From a virus: DNA of 21,194 nt. Positions within the stretch are counted from its first letter, which is position 1. Each line of letters opens with the position of its first letter. The DNA lies in IMG/VR virus record IMGVR_UViG_3300047549_000015, positions 1 to 21,194 of that record; one strand, 5' to 3'. Of the stretch, positions 784 to 9,842 are shown piece by piece. The notes under the pieces are model-generated. The model saw only the letters and a program-made list of their open reading frames with translations, searched no databases and was not told the DNA's origin. A program made the translations under genes and the position numbers.

Positions 784-928
784 GCAGGTGGGCGGCTGGA
801 AGTCGCATGGAGTTTCATATGCTCTAGAAAAGTTACGTTCGATTCGTAAACACTGCAACCAGATTAGACTAGGGTAGCTCCCGAAAAGATGATTCATCAC
901 CATCCTGTCTATATTTTAATGTGATGAA
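784..928 (+). ncRNA. HNH-associated pseudoknot RNA, copy 1
   Basis: A core at 865-928 repeats the layout of two other copies in this window. Stem A is TAGAC (865-869) with GTCTA (907-911). Stem B is GGG (872-874) with CCC (880-882) around TAGCT. A GAAAA linker (883-887) follows. Stem C is GATG (888-891) with CATC (901-904). Its loop TTCATCAC (893-900) is fully complementary to GTGATGAA at 921-928, across an AT-rich linker of about 10 nt. Upstream, GCAGGTG (784-790) can pair with CACTGC (851-856) and enclose hairpins GCGGCT/AGTCGC (792-806) and TTACG/CGTAA (833-849). The RNA runs directly into the translation start of the HNH gene at 950. Confidence 0.7.
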
Positions 929-949
929 ATTTCCTTGATGGAGAAATAT

Positions 950-1285
950 ATGAAAGAATTTAAAGAAAATCCTAGATATTTAATAGATGTTTTAGGTAGG
1001 GTATATGACAGTGAAAAGAACATATTTGTTTGTCAGTACGACAACGGTTGTGGTTATATCGCTGTTAAAATGAGATATCCAAACGGAAAAAGAAAGCAAC
1101 ACTATATCCATAGACTACTTGCCGAAGTTTACTTAGGTTGCACTAAAAATATGGATATTAATCATTTAGACGGTGATAAAAGTAATAACTGCTTAGACAA
1201 TTTAGAGATTGTTACACATCGAAAAAATATGCAACATGCTTTTGATAATAAACTACTAAAAGGCTTTGTTCAAAAGTTTTATTAA
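950..1285 (+). CDS. HNH endonuclease, HNH_3/NUMOD4-like homing nuclease, 111 aa
   Basis: This is a small free-standing nuclease of the phage homing-endonuclease type. The N-terminal strand region (YLIDVLGRVYD) resembles the NUMOD4-like opening of I-HmuI-type enzymes. The catalytic part reads IHRLLAEVYLG, then DINHLDGDKSNNCLDNLEIVT, the HNH_3 pattern with His and Asn/Asp metal-site residues, followed by a helix (HRKNMQHAFD). I chose ATG 950 because GGAGAA lies at 940-945, 4 nt before it; ATG 938 and TTG 935 are in-frame alternatives with poorer ribosome sites. The stop codon TAA (1283-1285) abuts the first base of tRNA-Thr with no gap. It is preceded by RNA copy 1. It probably cuts or nicks DNA to promote spread of its own locus. 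Confidence 0.8.
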   Translation: MKEFKENPRYLIDVLGRVYDSEKNIFVCQYDNGCGYIAVKMRYPNGKRKQHYIHRLLAEVYLGCTKNMDINHLDGDKSNNCLDNLEIVTHRKNMQHAFDNKLLKGFVQKFY

Positions 1286-1361
1286 GCTGAAGTAGCTCAT
1301 CTGGTAGAGCAACGGTTTTGTACTCCGTAGGCGGTGGGTTCGAGTCCTACCTTCAGCACCA
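1286..1361 (+). tRNA. tRNA-Thr (anticodon UGU)
   Basis: The acceptor GCTGAAG pairs with CTTCAGC and CCA is encoded. The D-arm is GCTC/GAGC, the anticodon stem ACGGT/TCCGT (one T-T mismatch at 31-39), with loop TTTGTAC giving anticodon TGT. The T-arm GTGGG-TTCGAGT-CCTAC is canonical. It reads ACA codons, which are common in this AT-rich phage. It begins directly after the stop codon of the HNH gene. Confidence 0.93.
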
Positions 1362-1441
1362 AATTTAGTTTAACGTACAAATGGTATGTCGGCAAGTCTC
1401 ACAAGAAACATTCGGTCGAGAGGGACTTACGTTAAATTTAT
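1362..1441 (+). other. tRNA spacer with long inverted repeat
   Basis: The 80-nt gap between tRNA-Thr and tRNA-Glu is bounded by TTTAACGTA (1369-1377) and its perfect reverse complement TACGTTAAA (1428-1436). Inside, AGTCTC and GAGGGACT can form a second imperfect helix. It could be a tRNA-processing structure, a small RNA, or the remnant of an element like the HNH-associated RNAs nearby. A frame crossing it into the tRNA-Glu is not credible as a gene. Confidence 0.4.
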
Positions 1442-1516
1442 GCTACCATCGTCTATCGGTTAGGACATTAGGTTTTCATCCTAAGAAGCGGAGTTCGATT
1501 CTCCGTGGTAGCTCCA
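1442..1516 (+). tRNA. tRNA-Glu (anticodon UUC)
   Basis: The acceptor GCTACCA pairs with TGGTAGC, with discriminator T and encoded CCA. The D-arm is GTCT/GGAC, the anticodon stem TTAGG/CCTAA, and loop TTTTCAT gives TTC. The T-arm is CGGAG-TTCGATT-CTCCG. All conserved positions are in place. It reads GAA codons. Confidence 0.95.
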
Positions 1517-1552
1517 GTATAAACGTGTATTCTGCTTACTACGTCAAAAGTG

Positions 1553-1673
1553 CAGCTGCTCAATCGCCAACGGAAAGAGCATAAGGTAACAGTTGGATGA
1601 ATTTATACAACAGCTAGGTTGGCCCACCGAAAAGACGATTATCCACCGTCCTGCTGATTGTTATTTAGTGGAT
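1553..1673 (+). ncRNA. HNH-associated pseudoknot RNA, copy 2
   Basis: This has the same layout as the copies at 784 and 2563, with different bases in the helices. GTTG (1592-1595) pairs with CAAC (1608-1611). Stem A is CAGC (1611-1614) with GCTG (1653-1656). Stem B is GGT (1617-1619) with ACC (1626-1628). The GAAAA linker is at 1629-1633. Stem C is GACG (1634-1637) with CGTC (1647-1650). Loop ATCCAC (1641-1646) is complementary to GTGGAT (1668-1673), 11 nt after stem A closes. Upstream, GCTC (1558-1561) can pair with GAGC (1577-1580). It lies between tRNA-Glu and the HNH start at 1689. Confidence 0.7.
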
Positions 1674-1688
1674 GTGTTTGGATAACAT

Positions 1689-2051
1689 ATGAATAAATTA
1701 ACTAAAACATGTAAAGTACACGGAGAAACTGCATATAGACTAGAAAGCAGCAACAATAATAGATATCGGTGCGTAAAATGTGCATCAGAGGCTGTACAGA
1801 AAAGACGAGACAAATTAAAAGTCTTAGCTGTAGAGTACAAAGGTGGTTGTTGTTCTATTTGTGGTTATAAGAAATACATAGGAGCTTTAGAGTTTCACCA
1901 CTTAGACCCGAATGCAAAAGATTTTGCAATTTCTGGAAGCGGTTTAACTAGAAGTTTCGAAAAAATTAAATTAGAACTTGATAAATGCATTTGTGTTTGT
2001 GCTAATTGTCACAGAGAATTACATCAAGAAATTAGAAATATTCCATTGTAG
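1689..2051 (+). CDS. HNH endonuclease, Cys4 zinc-type, 120 aa
   Basis: This is a small HNH nuclease of a different family from its neighbours. An N-terminal zinc-finger-like part has Cys at about 8 and C-x2-C (CVKC) near 29-32. The nuclease fold follows as C-x2-C (CSICG, about 56-60), then ALEFHHLDP (about 68-76) with the catalytic His pair, then CVCANCHRELHQE near the C-terminus with the second Cys pair and the last His. The start ATG 1689 is poorly served by a ribosome site (TTGGATAAC just before). The last codons run into the next RNA gene: TAG 2049-2051 lies at positions 8-10 of tRNA-Asn. It is preceded by RNA copy 2. Confidence 0.85.
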   Translation: MNKLTKTCKVHGETAYRLESSNNNRYRCVKCASEAVQKRRDKLKVLAVEYKGGCCSICGYKKYIGALEFHHLDPNAKDFAISGSGLTRSFEKIKLELDKCICVCANCHRELHQEIRNIPL

Positions 2052-2117
2052 CTCAGTCGGTAGAGCAAACGCCTGTTAAGTGTTGGGTCGGAGGTTCAAG
2101 CCCTTCCAATGGAGCCA
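2042..2117 (+). tRNA. tRNA-Asn (anticodon GUU)
   Basis: The acceptor TCCATTG pairs with CAATGGA, followed by discriminator G and encoded CCA. The D-arm is GCTC/GAGC, the anticodon stem AACGC/GTGTT, and loop CTGTTAA gives GTT. The T-arm is GGAGG-TTCAAGC-CCTTC. Its first ten bases also encode the C-terminal end and stop codon of the preceding HNH gene. Confidence 0.94.
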
Positions 2118-2121
2118 ATTT

Positions 2122-2211
2122 AGAAGTATGGTCGAGTGGCTTATGGCAATGGTTTGCTAAACCATCGGTGGCGAAAGCTGCCCACAGGTTCGAATCCTGT
2201 TACTTCTGCCA
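2122..2211 (+). tRNA. tRNA-Ser (anticodon GCU)
   Basis: This is a class II tRNA of 90 nt. The acceptor AGAAGTA pairs with TACTTCT, with discriminator G and encoded CCA. The anticodon stem ATGGT/ACCAT holds loop TTGCTAA (GCT). A long variable arm contains GGC-GAAA-GCT. The T-arm is ACAGG-TTCGAAT-CCTGT. It reads AGC and AGT. Confidence 0.94.
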
Positions 2212-2217
2212 AATAAT

Positions 2218-2295
2218 CTATGTATAGGCTAGTCTGGTTAAGTCACTGCATTTGGGGTGCAGATATCGGTGGTTCGAATCCATCTACATAGACCA
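2218..2295 (+). tRNA. tRNA-Pro (anticodon UGG)
   Basis: The acceptor CTATGTA pairs with TACATAG, with discriminator A and encoded CCA. The anticodon stem CTGCA/TGCAG has loop TTTGGGG (TGG). The D-arm is GGCT/AGTC with GG in its loop, and the T-arm is GGTGG-TTCGAAT-CCATC. It reads CCA and probably other CCN codons. Confidence 0.94.
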
Positions 2296-2301
2296 ATTTC
2301 T

Positions 2302-2325
2302 ATTCTCCATTTGCAAATGGAGAAT
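2302..2325 (+). repeat. Perfect 24-bp palindrome between tRNA-Pro and tRNA-Tyr-like gene
   Basis: ATTCTCCATTTG is followed immediately by its exact reverse complement. As RNA it folds into a strong hairpin, but no U-tract follows, so it is unlikely to be an intrinsic terminator. It may guide tRNA processing, or be a protein or dimer-binding site in DNA. Confidence 0.55.
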
Positions 2326-2352
2326 GCGTTATATCAGAATAGCGAATAATTA

Positions 2353-2439
2353 GGATACGTATACCGTTAAAGAGACGGTCTGGTCTGTAAAACCAGCGCT
2401 AATATAGCTCATATGGGGCGTTACCATAAGTATCCACCA
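2353..2439 (+). tRNA. tRNA-Tyr-like element (anticodon GUA) with abnormal D and T loops
   Basis: GGATAC pairs with GTATCC, followed by A and encoded CCA, so both ends look like a tRNA. The anticodon stem CTGGT/ACCAG holds loop CTGTAAA (GTA, Tyr). The variable arm is long (GCTA-ATA-TAGC), as expected for bacterial tRNA-Tyr. The D-arm ACCG-TTAAAGAGA-CGGT lacks the GG pair, and the T-arm TATGG-GGCGTTA-CCATA lacks TTC. The two loops that normally dock to form the elbow are therefore both altered. The seventh acceptor pair is G-A. It is either a decaying tRNA-Tyr or a tRNA-like RNA with another job. Confidence 0.55.
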
Positions 2440-2560
2440 AGAACCTACCTTAGGTCCGAAGTCACCTCGGTTTTAGGCGTCCCACGAATCTGTTGCGTGG
2501 TAACACGAAGTGTAAGAAGCTTCGGGTAAGTACCGCCAAGTACTTATGCAAAGAATACAG
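2440..2560 (+). ncRNA. Tandem hairpin region following the tRNA-Tyr-like element
   Basis: Five hairpins lie in a row without an ORF: ACCTA/TAGGT (2443-2455), CCGA/TCGG (2456-2470), CCACG/CGTGG (2482-2500), ACAC/GTGT (2503-2513) and the perfect TAAGTAC/GTACTTA (2527-2546). Copy 3 of the HNH-associated RNA follows directly, so this may be its 5-prime domain or a separate RNA. Copies 1 and 2 show no obvious equivalent. Confidence 0.4.
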
Positions 2561-2562
2561 CG

Positions 2563-2688
2563 TTCCATCTTGCGGCAACTACGAAAAGGTTGCACTGGAA
2601 GTCGTAACCCAGACTAATTTATACGACAGCTAGGGTAGCTCCCGAAAAGTAAGCTCCTCACTTACCTGCTGCTTGTTTATTTTGAGGA
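2563..2688 (+). ncRNA. HNH-associated pseudoknot RNA, copy 3
   Basis: TTCCA (2563-2567)/TGGAA (2596-2600) enclose GCAAC (2575-2579)/GTTGC (2589-2593). GTCG (2601-2604) pairs with CGAC (2624-2627). Stem A is CAGC (2627-2630)/GCTG (2668-2671). Stem B is GGG (2633-2635)/CCC (2641-2643). The GAAAA linker is at 2644-2648. Stem C is GTAAG (2649-2653)/CTTAC (2661-2665). Loop TCCTCA is complementary to TGAGGA (2683-2688), 11 nt after stem A, and again to TGAGGAG at 2695-2701, which is the ribosome site of the HNH gene. A 20-nt block (2630-2649) is identical to copy 1 (869-888). Confidence 0.72.
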
Positions 2689-2707
2689 TTATTCTGAGGA
2701 GAATAAA

Positions 2708-3235
2708 GTGTATAAAACATGCTATACATGCAAAGAAGAAAAATTATTTAGCGATTTTAGTAAAGATAAAACTAAAAAAGATGGCTATTGCAGTCAATGT
2801 AAGATTTGTAAGAAAAAATATCACGAAGCTAATAAAGAATGTATTGCTGAGTATAAAAAACAATATAAAGATACAAATAAAGAACAAACTATTGATTACC
2901 AAAAGTATTATCGTGAGGCTAATAAAGACAAGATAGCTGAACAAAAGAAGAGATACCAAAAAGATAATCCTGCGAAAATTAATGCCAAAAATGCTAAACG
3001 CAGAGCTGCAAAACTTCAGGCTACTCCAAAATGGTTAACACTTGAAGATTTACAACAAATTGAAAACTTTTATAAAGAAGCTCAACGCTTGAAATTACTC
3101 ACCAACCAAGAATATCACATAGATCATATAGTTCCGCTACAAGGTAAAAACGTGTGTGGTTTACACGTACCGTGGAATCTACAGATTTTACAGGCTTCGG
3201 AGAATAGAATTAAATCAAACAAATTACAGGAATAA
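2708..3235 (+). CDS. HNH endonuclease with zinc finger and 15-aa repeats, 175 aa
   Basis: This is a third HNH family in the same cluster. The N-terminus has CYTCKEEK (about 5-12) and CSQCKICKKKYHE (about 29-41), a four-Cys zinc module. Then come about four 15-residue repeats of the form Y-x-E-A-N-K-E-x-I-A-E-Y-K-K (about 39-97), likely a long helical DNA-binding stalk. The nuclease motif YHIDHIVPLQGKNVCGLHVPWNLQIL (137-162) carries the His-Asp-His core and ends with N-rich SENRIKSNK. I use GTG 2708 because GAGGAG (2696-2701) lies 6 nt upstream. The gene ends 5 nt before terS and its last codons contain the terS ribosome site. Confidence 0.85.
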   Translation: MYKTCYTCKEEKLFSDFSKDKTKKDGYCSQCKICKKKYHEANKECIAEYKKQYKDTNKEQTIDYQKYYREANKDKIAEQKKRYQKDNPAKINAKNAKRRAAKLQATPKWLTLEDLQQIENFYKEAQRLKLLTNQEYHIDHIVPLQGKNVCGLHVPWNLQILQASENRIKSNKLQE

Positions 3236-3240
3236 TAAAC

Positions 3241-5078: not shown

Positions 5079-6545
5079 ATGGCAAAACAAAGTATTAAAA
5101 AGGCTACATTAGACGATACTCCAGAACGTTTCAAATTGAGTGAAGCAGGTTATCTAGGATTAAATGTATTTAATGGTGTTTCTAATGACGAGTTAAAAAA
5201 GGAATTGAATTTCCCTCATAGTATTAAGACGTACAAGAACATGACGTATCATAGTACTATTAATGCTTCTTTAACTTTATTTGATAATTTAATCGGTAAA
5301 GTTCAATGGACTTTTAAAGCACCTAAAGATGCAACTGAAGAAGAAAAGCGTCAGGCTGAAATCATCAATCAAATGATGCATGATATGCAAGATCAAACTT
5401 GGCAAGAATTCATCAGTGAAGCTTTGAGTTCAAACGTATTTGGTTTCTCTGTACATGAGAAAGTATATCGTCGTAGAAATAATTCCAATGGTTCAAAGTA
5501 CAATGATAACTTGATTGGTTGGAAACGTCTACCTATCAGAAATCAAGAAACGATTGAAAAGTTTATTTTCTCTGAAAACGGTAACGATGTTCTAGGTGTA
5601 AAACAAAATCTGTCTTCAATTTCAGATTTATACAGTAGATATTCTAGCAGAACAAACAAAGAAATTATTCTACCTCGTAGCAAAGTTCTATTGTTTAGAG
5701 CAGGTAAACATAAAGGTGATCCATTCGGTAAATCGATGCTTCGTGATGCGTATCTATCTTGGAGATTCCTGACTGTAATCGAAGAAATTGAAGCCAATGG
5801 TGTAGCTAAAGATTTAGCTGGTTTACCTGTACTAAAATTACCTCCTCAGTATCTTTCTACAGAAGCTTCCCCTGAACAAAAAGCTATTCGTGCTTATTAC
5901 GAAAATGTAATGCGTAATTTGCAGATGAATCAACAATCCGCTTTGATTCTACCGCAAGCACACGATCCTGATACTCGTCAACCGATGTTTGAACTTGAAT
6001 TACTTTCCTTAAACGGTAGTAAGGCAATGGATACCAGTAAGATTAAAGAATATTATAAGAATTCGATTCTAACTTCTTTATTCGCTGATGTTTTAGTCAT
6101 GGGTCAATCTGGTGGTGGTTCATTCGCTCTAGGTCAAATTAAGAATTCATTATCAGCTAGTGCAGCAGAAGCAATGCTAGATAAGATTACTAGTGTAATC
6201 AATAATGACTTGATTCGTCAAACTTACGAGTTGAATTCTTGGGATACTTCCCGAATGGGTTCAATGGATTATGATAATCTACAAACAGAAGATTTGGAAT
6301 CTTTCTCCAAGGCTGTTCAACGTTTCGCTAGTACATCGGTAATTGAAATTGATCGCGCTGTTCTTAATAGAGTACGTGAATCAATTGGTGTAGATGCTCT
6401 ACCTGAAGATGCTGAACCAAATAAAGAATTACTACCTTCAATGACTTCTAGAAGTGGTGATGGTTTTAAAACAGCAGGTGAAGGTACAAGTAATTCTCCA
6501 TCTGGTGCTGATACAAGTTCATCTAATTTAGAGAATGCTGCATAA
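5079..6545 (+). CDS. Portal protein, DUF935/Mu gp29-like, 488 aa
   Basis: This forms the dodecameric ring at the head vertex through which DNA passes. The size, the place right after terL, and segments such as the N-terminal region with repeated amphipathic helices, LPIRNQETIEKF (about 150-161) and the long helical C-terminal half (TSVINNDLIRQTYELN) match the DUF935 type of portal. The last 50 residues are low-complexity Ser/Gly/Thr. AAAGGAG lies 7 nt before the ATG. The last 11 nt overlap the start of a GIY-YIG gene. Confidence 0.82.
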   Translation: MAKQSIKKATLDDTPERFKLSEAGYLGLNVFNGVSNDELKKELNFPHSIKTYKNMTYHSTINASLTLFDNLIGKVQWTFKAPKDATEEEKRQAEIINQMMHDMQDQTWQEFISEALSSNVFGFSVHEKVYRRRNNSNGSKYNDNLIGWKRLPIRNQETIEKFIFSENGNDVLGVKQNLSSISDLYSRYSSRTNKEIILPRSKVLLFRAGKHKGDPFGKSMLRDAYLSWRFLTVIEEIEANGVAKDLAGLPVLKLPPQYLSTEASPEQKAIRAYYENVMRNLQMNQQSALILPQAHDPDTRQPMFELELLSLNGSKAMDTSKIKEYYKNSILTSLFADVLVMGQSGGGSFALGQIKNSLSASAAEAMLDKITSVINNDLIRQTYELNSWDTSRMGSMDYDNLQTEDLESFSKAVQRFASTSVIEIDRAVLNRVRESIGVDALPEDAEPNKELLPSMTSRSGDGFKTAGEGTSNSPSGADTSSSNLENAA

Positions 6546-6894
6546 TACTGAAAAAGTAGCTGCAGTTTATTGGTTGCATTTGAAGGGACACACTGACGTT
6601 TTCACACAAGGATACGTTGGTGTGACTACTAGACTTATCGATATTAGATTTAAGGAACACTGTTTTAAGTTTAATAATTCATATAATCAGTATAATCCTT
6701 TGCATCTTGCTTTTTCACAACATGGTATAGATTCTATAGTAGTTACTAGATTATGTGTATGCCCTGTAAAACAAGCATATGAAATTGAAAAACTATTCAG
6801 ACCTTTTGAATACATGGGTTGGAATACCAGTGAAGGTGGTAAGATTTCAAGAAGAGCAGCTGAGATTATCACCAGAAAACGCAAAACTAACTAA
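6535..6894 (+). CDS. GIY-YIG endonuclease family protein, 119 aa
   Basis: VYWLHLKG (about 11-18) followed by GYVGVTTRLIDIRFKEH (about 26-42) is a GIY-YIG core: the Tyr of strand 1, the YVG equivalent of YIG, the catalytic Arg, and EH. HLAFSQHG and the late GWNTSEGGK segment are also typical. It is probably a free-standing homing endonuclease inserted behind the portal gene. Its ATG lies inside the portal gene (11-nt overlap) with no clear ribosome site, so translation is probably coupled to the portal stop. Its target is unknown; an intronless allele near the portal end would be expected. Confidence 0.75.
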   Translation: MLHNTEKVAAVYWLHLKGHTDVFTQGYVGVTTRLIDIRFKEHCFKFNNSYNQYNPLHLAFSQHGIDSIVVTRLCVCPVKQAYEIEKLFRPFEYMGWNTSEGGKISRRAAEIITRKRKTN

Positions 6895-7655: not shown

Positions 7656-9842
7656 ATGGCTTCAATCGTAAGAATTAAACGTTCGGAAGTTTCTGGTAAT
7701 CCGTCTACACTTGGTCAAGGTGAATTAGCTTATTCAGCGTTACCGGATAATGGTGTAAATGGTGGTGATCGCCTATACATTGGTATGGGTACAGAAACTA
7801 ACGGTAATGCAGTTAATCATATTGTAATTGGTGGTAAGTATTTTACCGATATCATTAATGCTGCTACAAGCACTAATACAGGTTCGACATTAGTTAAGCG
7901 TGATGCCTCTGGAAATTTCTCAGCTGGTACAATTACCGCTGCTCTATCCGGTAATGCTTCAACAGCTACCAAATGGATTTCAGCAAGAGATTTATCTTTA
8001 ACAGGTGATGCTACAGCTACATTATCTGCTGTTGATGGTTCAGCTAACGTATCTGCTGCAATTACACTTGCTACAGTTAATACCAACGTAGGTACATTTG
8101 GTTCAGCAAGTTCTATCCCTGTTATTACTACAAACGCAAAAGGTTTGATCACAGGTGTAACTACTGCTGCTGTTGCATCTAACCTAAACATCGCTGGTGA
8201 TACAGGTACAGATGCTGTTAGCCTATTAACAGATACGCTATCATTTACTGGTGGTATTGGTATTACTTCAAGTGTTACAAACAATGTTGTTACATTTGAT
8301 ATCGACAGTACAGTTGCTCTAAAAGCTAATAAACTAAGCGTATTTGCTGCTACTACTTCTGCAGAACTTGCTTCGGTAATTTCAGATGAAACAGGTTCAG
8401 GTGCTTTAGTATTCGCTAATAGTCCTACACTCGTTGCACCTAATATTGGTGCTGCAACAGCAACTTCTGTTAACAAATTAAACATTGTAGCTCCAGTAAC
8501 TTCAGCTACTCTTAACATTGCCAACGGTGCTACTCTTGCTACAACTGGTGCGTATGTAGTAACGTTGAATTCTACAGCTAACTCAACAGTAACACTTCCA
8601 ACAAGTGGTACATTAGCTACTCTAGCAGGTGCAGAGACTCTAACAAGTAAGACAATTAGTGGTGCTTCAAACACACTAACCAACATTGGTAATTCTTCAC
8701 TTACAAATAGTTCTGTAACAATTGGTTCTACAAATGTAGCACTAGGTGCAACAGCTACTTCATTAGCAGGTCTAACAGAAGTTACTGTAGACAACATTAA
8801 CATCAATGGTAACACAATTAGCTCAATCGATGCTAACGGTGATATCGTTATTGCTCCAAACGGTTCTGGTAATGTTGACGTATCCAATTCTCGTATTATT
8901 GGTGTAACTACTCCTGTAAACGATAATGATGCTGCCAACAAACTTTATGTTGATACTGTAGCTGCTCAAGGTTTGCACGTACAAGATGGTGTAGATGCTG
9001 CTACTACAAACACTCTAGCTGTTCTTTCTGGTGGTATTGTAACATACAGTAACGGTACAGCAGGTGTAGGCGCTACATTAACTACAACAGGTTCTTATGC
9101 AACAGGTAATCCGATTGATGGTGTAAATCTTGCTGCAATTGGTTATGGTGTAGCTCGCGTTCTAGTTAAGAATGAAACAAACCAAGTACACAATGGTATT
9201 TATATTCTAACAAGTCCTACTGTTCTAACCCGTGATCCTGTATTCGATGATGACGCAGATATTCAGGGTGGTGACTTCGTATTCGTAGTTGAAGGTGCAG
9301 TAAATGCAAGTACAGGTTGGGTACAAACTGCTACGGTTAATGTTATTGGTACTGATCCAATCGTTTGGACACAATTCTCCGGTGCAGGTACATATCTTGC
9401 TGATGGTGGTTTAACTCTAGTAGGTAATACTTTTGCAGTTGGTCAAGGTCTAGGTATTACTGTTAATGCCAATGACGTAGCACTTGCTGCTTCCGTAGCT
9501 GGCGCTGGTCTAACGTATACAAGCGGTGTTCTAGCCGTAGGTGGTACTGCAAATAGAATTACAGTAAGTGCAGACGCAATTGACATTGCTTCTACATACG
9601 CAGGTCAAAGCTCAATTACTACTGTAGGTACAATCACTTCTGGCACATGGAATGGTACAACTATTGCAGTAGCAAACGGTGGTACTGGCTTGACAAGTAT
9701 TACTTCTCGTGGTATTATGTTTGGTAACAACGGTTCTGCTGTAGGTGTTACTTCAGCTTCTGCGATTGACGGTAGTTTCTTGCGTGAAGACTCAACAGGT
9801 AATCCTTACTGGTCAAATTCTATTGACGGTGGAACTTACTAA
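7656..9842 (+). CDS. Large repetitive tail fibre protein, 728 aa
   Basis: The N-terminus (MASIVRIKRSEVSGNPSTLG, then ELAYSALPD and DRLYIGMGTE) is the Mtd_N-like attachment module seen in many fibres. The rest is Ala/Thr/Gly/Ser/Asn/Val-rich with no Cys, and consists of fibre repeats such as VNTNVGTFGSASSIPVIT, TIGSTNVALGATATSLAGL and GTWNGTTIAVANGGTG, typical of trimeric beta-helical shafts. The C-terminus ends in IDGGTY, with no S74 domain. TTAAGGAAAA precedes the ATG. A good intrinsic terminator follows 8 nt after the stop. The long opposite-strand frame here is a composition artefact. Confidence 0.85.
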   Translation: MASIVRIKRSEVSGNPSTLGQGELAYSALPDNGVNGGDRLYIGMGTETNGNAVNHIVIGGKYFTDIINAATSTNTGSTLVKRDASGNFSAGTITAALSGNASTATKWISARDLSLTGDATATLSAVDGSANVSAAITLATVNTNVGTFGSASSIPVITTNAKGLITGVTTAAVASNLNIAGDTGTDAVSLLTDTLSFTGGIGITSSVTNNVVTFDIDSTVALKANKLSVFAATTSAELASVISDETGSGALVFANSPTLVAPNIGAATATSVNKLNIVAPVTSATLNIANGATLATTGAYVVTLNSTANSTVTLPTSGTLATLAGAETLTSKTISGASNTLTNIGNSSLTNSSVTIGSTNVALGATATSLAGLTEVTVDNININGNTISSIDANGDIVIAPNGSGNVDVSNSRIIGVTTPVNDNDAANKLYVDTVAAQGLHVQDGVDAATTNTLAVLSGGIVTYSNGTAGVGATLTTTGSYATGNPIDGVNLAAIGYGVARVLVKNETNQVHNGIYILTSPTVLTRDPVFDDDADIQGGDFVFVVEGAVNASTGWVQTATVNVIGTDPIVWTQFSGAGTYLADGGLTLVGNTFAVGQGLGITVNANDVALAASVAGAGLTYTSGVLAVGGTANRITVSADAIDIASTYAGQSSITTVGTITSGTWNGTTIAVANGGTGLTSITSRGIMFGNNGSAVGVTSASAIDGSFLREDSTGNPYWSNSIDGGTY

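Follow-up and report, generated by a model that had tools for sequence, protein, structure and literature searches.

The viral record IMGVR_UViG_3300047549_000015 of IMG/VR carries, within its positions 1 to 21,194 (the stretch of 21,194 nucleotides analyzed here, hereafter the window), three copies of one structured RNA, each followed by a gene for an HNH nuclease, with all RNAs and genes on the plus strand. HNH gene 1 (950-1285) encodes 111 amino acids matching Pfam HNH_3 (E = 1.3e-11) and a PHROG HNH family, HNH gene 2 (1689-2051) encodes a Cys4 HNH protein of 120 amino acids (PHROG 2255 HNH, E = 2.7e-31; Pfam HNH, 0.007), and HNH gene 3 (2708-3235) encodes an endonuclease VII-like protein of 175 amino acids (PHROG 1035 endonuclease VII, E = 3.2e-20; Pfam HNH_4, 0.02). 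A preliminary description of the window, made from its letters, had called these proteins unrelated, and indeed they have no mutual BLAST similarity and fall into separate HNH families. The RNA in front of them presents a loop with two competing complements downstream, one of which covers the ribosome site.

Fold and Family of the RNA

The same description had placed in each copy (865-928, 1611-1673, and 2627-2688) an outer stem A enclosing stems B and C, and a downstream strand, here called P, complementary to the loop of hairpin C. Direct reading of the sequence bears out both the order of the elements and the helices, and the pattern CTAGN{9,11}CGAAAAGN{15,17}CCTG occurs three times in the window where 0.01 occurrences are expected by chance. 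The three-stem core of copy 1 spans 865-911 (R1, 60.1 bits), with stem A at 865-869/907-911, stem B at 872-874/880-882, GAAAA at 883-887, and stem C at 888-891/901-904; its loop (892-900) reads ATTCATCAC, and strand P (921-928) is the complement GTGATGAA. Directly 5' of this copy, positions 784-858 hold a tRNA-like (transfer RNA-like) sequence with a CCA end, which received no ARAGORN or Rfam call. Copy 2 has its core at 1611-1656 (R1, 51.0 bits; stem A 1611-1614/1653-1656, stem B 1617-1619/1626-1628, stem C 1634-1637/1647-1650), a loop at 1638-1646 (ATTATCCAC), and a strand P read from the sequence as GTGGAT at 1668-1673. In copy 3 the core lies at 2627-2671 (R1, 62.1 bits; stem A 2627-2630/2668-2671, stem B 2633-2635/2641-2643, stem C 2649-2653/2661-2665), and strand P (TGAGGA, 2683-2688) forms 6 base pairs with the loop CTCCTCA.

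The RNA is a member of the already known Rfam family int-alpA (RF02996) and not of an unknown one. All three copies align end to end with that model, copy 3 at 39.0 bits, above the gathering score of 35.8 bits, and copies 1 and 2 at full length with scores below it (30.5 and 33.1 bits, respectively). We assign the element to int-alpA because 14 of 20 related loci exceed the gathering score. Both share the three-stem fold and the CTAG/CGAAAAG/CCTG core, and strand P lies inside the 71-nucleotide model; the Rfam entry differs from the element described here in that it lists a small RNA gene with three stems, no pseudoknot, and no site corresponding to the second loop complement treated below. 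The name refers to an integrase-alpA setting, in place of which we find HNH, replication, and late-operon settings; the window copies precede HNH genes among tRNAs, a departure in setting and not in any structural criterion of the Rfam model. To our knowledge, int-alpA has no established function, and a literature text search, with most subscription papers outside its reach, found the family named in one paper and no function given. A small RNA of phage PAK_P4, annotated from RNA sequencing near an HNH gene, was considered as a relative and does not belong to the int-alpA family. The preliminary description had also offered a ribozyme as one of three possible roles, for which we found no support: the Rfam scan of the window gave no match to a HEARO, group I intron, or known ribozyme model.

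The fold that was first drawn from three copies is strongly supported by covariation of stems A, B, and C in relatives. In an alignment of 63 elements, 92.7% of cells pair as the named structure predicts (63.4% after shuffling), the covariation score is 0.70 against 0.148 (standard deviation (sd) 0.014), and 255 cells are changed on both sides against 84 in the shuffled set. Sliding the partner strands relative to each other abolishes the covariation. In a larger set of 163 nonredundant elements, stem A averages 6.2 pairs, compared to 2.5 when strands are swapped between elements, and stem C averages 4.5 of 5 pairs, compared to 2.9. One helix did not survive this comparison: the additional GTTG/CAAC versus GTCG/CGAC pairing proposed for copies 2 and 3 is unsupported in relatives (own strands, 3.45; swapped, 3.37; sd 0.06), and its 5' strand belongs to the phage DNA beside the inserted cassette, not to the cassette.

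Two Competing Partners of the Loop

The loop of hairpin C has a second complement, strand D, that the preliminary description overlooked. It lies over each Shine-Dalgarno sequence, usually inside a small hairpin, and begins about 12 nucleotides 5' of the start codon, with start codons picked by a simple score. In copy 1 the sequence, its fold, and the test of loop-D pairing place D (TGATG, 936-940) in a hairpin at 930-944 together with the Shine-Dalgarno GGAG (940-943). Copy 2 has D at 1679-1685 (TGGATAA) within the hairpin preceding the start codon, where it can form 7 base pairs with its own loop and at most 4 with the loops of copies 1 and 3. In copy 3, D (TGAGGAG, 2695-2701) is itself the Shine-Dalgarno sequence; it lies in a hairpin at 2689-2706 with a folding energy of -4.9 kcal/mol and likewise matches its own loop over 7 base pairs.

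Both complements were assessed by swapping loops between elements in 20,000 permutations, using a strict set of 69 elements that took one from each protein family and kept loop similarity below 75%. The longest loop-P match averages 5.29 as compared with 3.21 (sd 0.105) for swapped loops, and none of the permutations reached the observed value, which establishes the pseudoknot strand of the preliminary description as real. The longest loop-D match averages 4.88 against 3.52 (sd 0.105), again with no permutation as high. No excess of loop complementarity was seen upstream of the RNA or inside coding stretches, and a 5' address sequence of the kind that phage P4 has in seqA was thereby rejected. 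The bases flanking D form at least 4 base pairs in 65% of cases as opposed to 18% after shuffling. Among homologous genes, loop, P, and D change together; for example, one leader has loop ATTCTGATAC, P GTATCAG, and D ATCAG where another has AATCTTTCAC, GTGAAAG, and TGAAAG. In each of the 87 elements with both strands, P and D claim overlapping parts of the loop, so the two pairings are mutually exclusive, and they are balanced in energy, with mean duplex energies of -8.0 kcal/mol for P (swapped, -3.7) and -8.1 kcal/mol for D (swapped, -5.3).

Since one loop can pair, exclusively and with balanced energies, with either P or the ribosome site, its most likely function is to control translation, and of the roles named in the preliminary description it is this one that reads best. 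We think it probable, from complementarity and position, that the RNA is a translation switch acting mainly in cis, in which loop-D pairing would close the ribosome site and loop-P pairing would open it; that is, we infer that translation is repressed by D pairing and that P pairing lifts the repression. Each RNA would then control, from the 5' end, a cargo cassette that lies between cistrons and seemingly has no promoter of its own. The three-stem core, A enclosing B and C, would present the loop of hairpin C as an address whose complements lie just downstream, P single-stranded and D in the small hairpin over the Shine-Dalgarno sequence. When the loop holds P, the ribosome site would be free; when it holds D, the site would be closed to ribosomes, leaving the cargo (an HNH homing endonuclease in the window) untranslated. 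Candidates for setting the switch are the order of synthesis, translation of the upstream gene, a ligand, and the RNA itself, acting in trans as free copies.

Four points weigh against a cis switch of this kind. Minimum-energy folding of the isolated window leaders fails to recover the three-stem fold. Between about a quarter and a third of the elements do not reach five contiguous D pairs. The swapped baseline for D is raised because D and the Shine-Dalgarno sequence share composition. Finally, the invariance of the CTAGG..CGAAAAG..CCTG core is in part imposed because the search pattern required this motif.

Genomic Setting

The collections of IMG/VR and GTDB genomes were scanned with the exact pattern CTAGGNTNGCN{1,2}NCCGAAAAGN{13,19}CCTG, which yields examples and no census of frequency. 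It was found in at least 119 IMG/VR stretches and at least 120 GTDB stretches; for the whole genome collection we estimate about 6 chance matches (20 fixed bases, 14 spacings, both strands, and 257 billion bases). The matches listed include phages and prophages as well as hosts from Proteobacteria, Planctomycetota, Firmicutes, anammox bacteria, and others, and mostly show one copy per genome or phage, rarely two or three. Annotated examples are E. coli prophages, in which the RNA precedes a DUF551 gene between Rha and terminase, Enterobacter phage Tyrion, and Acinetobacter phage Ab105-2phi.

The element is intercistronic, as judged from a same-strand stop codon within 40 nucleotides upstream in 73% of elements (18% of random positions) and a start codon 42 nucleotides (sd 6) downstream. 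Its weak promoter signal is better explained by the stop codons of the upstream gene, and an own promoter was rejected. An intrinsic terminator after stem A was also rejected, with T-runs of 5 or more in just 29 of 163 elements. By single linkage, the genes downstream of the listed matches fall into 116 protein families. Pfam matches among 145 of their products include DUF1376 (11), HNH_3 (9), HNH (8), DUF927 (6), NUMOD3 (4), NUMOD4 (4), GIY-YIG (3), and others, and PHROG matches include primosomal, replication-initiation, and HNH families. Nuclease and replication genes are thus prominent downstream, yet not exclusive. The exclusive link between RNA and HNH gene in the preliminary description is refuted on the terms that description itself had set, the company that the RNA keeps away from HNH genes: it precedes many non-nuclease genes.

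This breadth of cargo bears on whether the RNA senses something. In a ligand- or protein-sensing riboswitch, the core (CTA, GG..CC, GAAAA, and CCTG) would bind a small molecule or a host protein and the exchange between P and D would be the expression platform. Two exclusive pairings are typical of such a platform, and the core sequence is common across phyla while stems and loop drift. Yet the downstream genes have no common pathway, the RNA usually occurs as a single copy, and the constancy of the core owes something to the search, as noted above; we regard a riboswitch as rather improbable.

Comparison with Antisense RNAs and Phage Leaders

The sites that would serve a cis switch could also serve an antisense RNA of the C4/CI type acting in trans. 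In this alternative, processing or termination would release the three-stem RNA, whose free loop would block D on other copies of the same messenger RNA (mRNA), giving self-limitation or superinfection immunity, while on an uncut mRNA, P would occupy that molecule's own loop. C4 of phages P1 and P7 provides a precedent: it is excised from the leader of its own operon and acts by blocking a ribosome site (PMC5320573). Like the element here, C4 and the CI RNA of P4 (RF01695) are phage RNAs with an outer stem and two hairpins, an address loop, and two complementary targets, one of which, in P1 and P7, is at a ribosome site, as the loop-D test finds here. The differences are that P4 has one target upstream and one downstream whereas both are downstream here, and that C4 is processed by RNase P and has its own model, which CI of P4 matches at 74.9 bits and to which the window gave no match at E values up to 5. 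In favor of action in trans, each of the three addresses in the window pairs best with its own D; against it, the copy 3 loop is a fairly good partner for the copy 1 D as well (-8.0 kcal/mol). A second precedent is IsrK of prophage Gifsy-1, which works both as a small RNA and as part of an mRNA leader in which alternative structures control translation (PMC4825925); it differs from our element in belonging to another Rfam family, activating in trans, and having a terminator.

A terminator-type scaffold near some HNH genes also speaks for release of a free RNA. In five loci with HNH3-like genes that lack an int-alpA-type RNA (L298, L299, L300, L306, and L308), a terminator-like hairpin lies upstream, with promoter-like boxes 5' of it in several. 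Its loop complements two downstream strands, P-like and D-like, the second over the Shine-Dalgarno sequence, and in L299 that loop is the same as the copy 1 loop, ATTCATCAC. A broad test of this scaffold gave a modest excess, and the lead rests on this handful of loci, which nonetheless suggest that having two partners for one loop is more important than the scaffold that presents it. Against action in trans, most int-alpA-type elements are intercistronic, lack a T-run terminator, and show little sign of a promoter, and among homologues the loop does not outpace the remainder of the leader in divergence; the latter finding also led us to reject rapid address divergence as a mark of immunity groups. 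On balance we consider an antisense role possible and not likely, and since it uses the same sites as the cis switch, both could hold.

Closer to a cis switch are the leaders of T4-type homing endonuclease genes. Several free-standing genes of this type are known as cassettes that lack a promoter, and in several the ribosome site is covered by RNA structure (PMC2988022). Those of I-TevI, segB, and Aeh1 mobE resemble the window leaders in combining a phage endonuclease gene with such a structure (PMC2988022). They are simple gene-specific hairpins set by promoter choice, whereas here one conserved, portable RNA has two competing partners.

RNA and HNH Genes as Mobile Cassettes

Parts of the segment from the tRNAs through DUF5681 to terminase are common to the window, Limnohabitans phage DC31, and the viral contigs L077, L064, and L036, which allows insertions to be delimited. 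Cassette 2 (RNA copy 2 and HNH gene 2, 1605-2041) lies between tRNA-Glu and tRNA-Asn. In L077 the site is empty, window positions 1440-1604 adjoining those from about 2049 onward, and the cassette is absent from DC31 too. At 2042-2051 the HNH gene 2 stop codon falls inside the tRNA-Asn gene, the acceptor stem of which differs from that in L077. Cassette 3 (RNA copy 3 and HNH gene 3, 2624-3237) precedes the DUF5681 gene; in L077, position 2623 joins about 3238, and both L077 and DC31 run GACTAATTTATA directly into the DUF5681 ribosome-binding site. Conversely, in L077 and L064 an RNA and an HNH gene separate DUF5681 from terminase, an interval of eight bases in the window. Relatives thus differ at one and the same site in whether they have a free-standing HNH gene, as in homing endonuclease cassettes, and because the empty sites bracket RNA and HNH gene together, the inserted unit comprises both, its 5' edge being formed by the RNA.

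The modules have also been exchanged, as seen from L064, in which an RNA 96% identical to copy 2 over 90 nucleotides precedes an HNH gene whose product resembles HNH 3 (36%), no similarity to HNH 2 being detectable. The arrangement in the window is not an assembly accident, since the record IMGVR_UViG_3300043400_000028 has all three HNH proteins at 99-100% identity together with three RNAs. Within this phage group, then, the mobile unit of RNA and small HNH gene put forward in the preliminary description holds.

Its main inference, a guide or omega-like RNA serving the small HNH nuclease, does not. That RNA and HNH gene move together, with the RNA at the 5' edge of the cassette, speaks for such a guide. 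HEARO/omega RNAs of IscB, IsrB, or IshB are recognized by a model match and by consistent pairing with their nuclease, and neither was found here. The RNA occurs in few relatives of the three HNH proteins (6/80, 2/80, and 1/20), which argues that it is not their guide, and it precedes non-nuclease genes as well; the variable loop, moreover, is accounted for by P and D. We therefore give a guide role almost no credence.

Further observations concern the neighborhood of the cassettes. In L036, a decayed RNA copy lies on the complement strand at about 9401-9485, just downstream of DUF5681, with GAAAAG changed to GAACG and CCTG to CTG and with the D hairpin kept. Window positions 2440-2622, before DUF5681, are noncoding and conserved in L077, DC31, and L036; hairpins there covary (for example, CCACG..CGTGG, CCTCG..CGAGG, and CATTG..CAATG), and the folding energy is not unusual (z = -0.46). 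The region is a candidate structured RNA or packaging region. A small open reading frame at 6535-6894 has a GIY-YIG-like motif (YVGVTTR) with no Pfam or PHROG match, and no int-alpA-type RNA was found in front of it.

Conclusions

The family int-alpA is far wider than its name, extending over phages, prophages, and genomes of many phyla and more than 100 gene families, and a cis switch offers it a testable function. More tentatively, int-alpA-type elements may represent a large unrecognized class of self-addressed RNA switches on mobile elements, in which a fixed scaffold carries a freely changing loop that addresses its own ribosome site. Such a switch would give one regulatory channel per cargo gene, would be portable between unrelated genes, and would perhaps provide RNA immunity in trans between related phages. 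A scaffold with a swappable address could also act as a programmable part for translation control. A cis switch, if true, would account for the entry of cargo such as homing endonucleases, replication initiators, and accessory genes into crowded phage operons with their translation kept in check.

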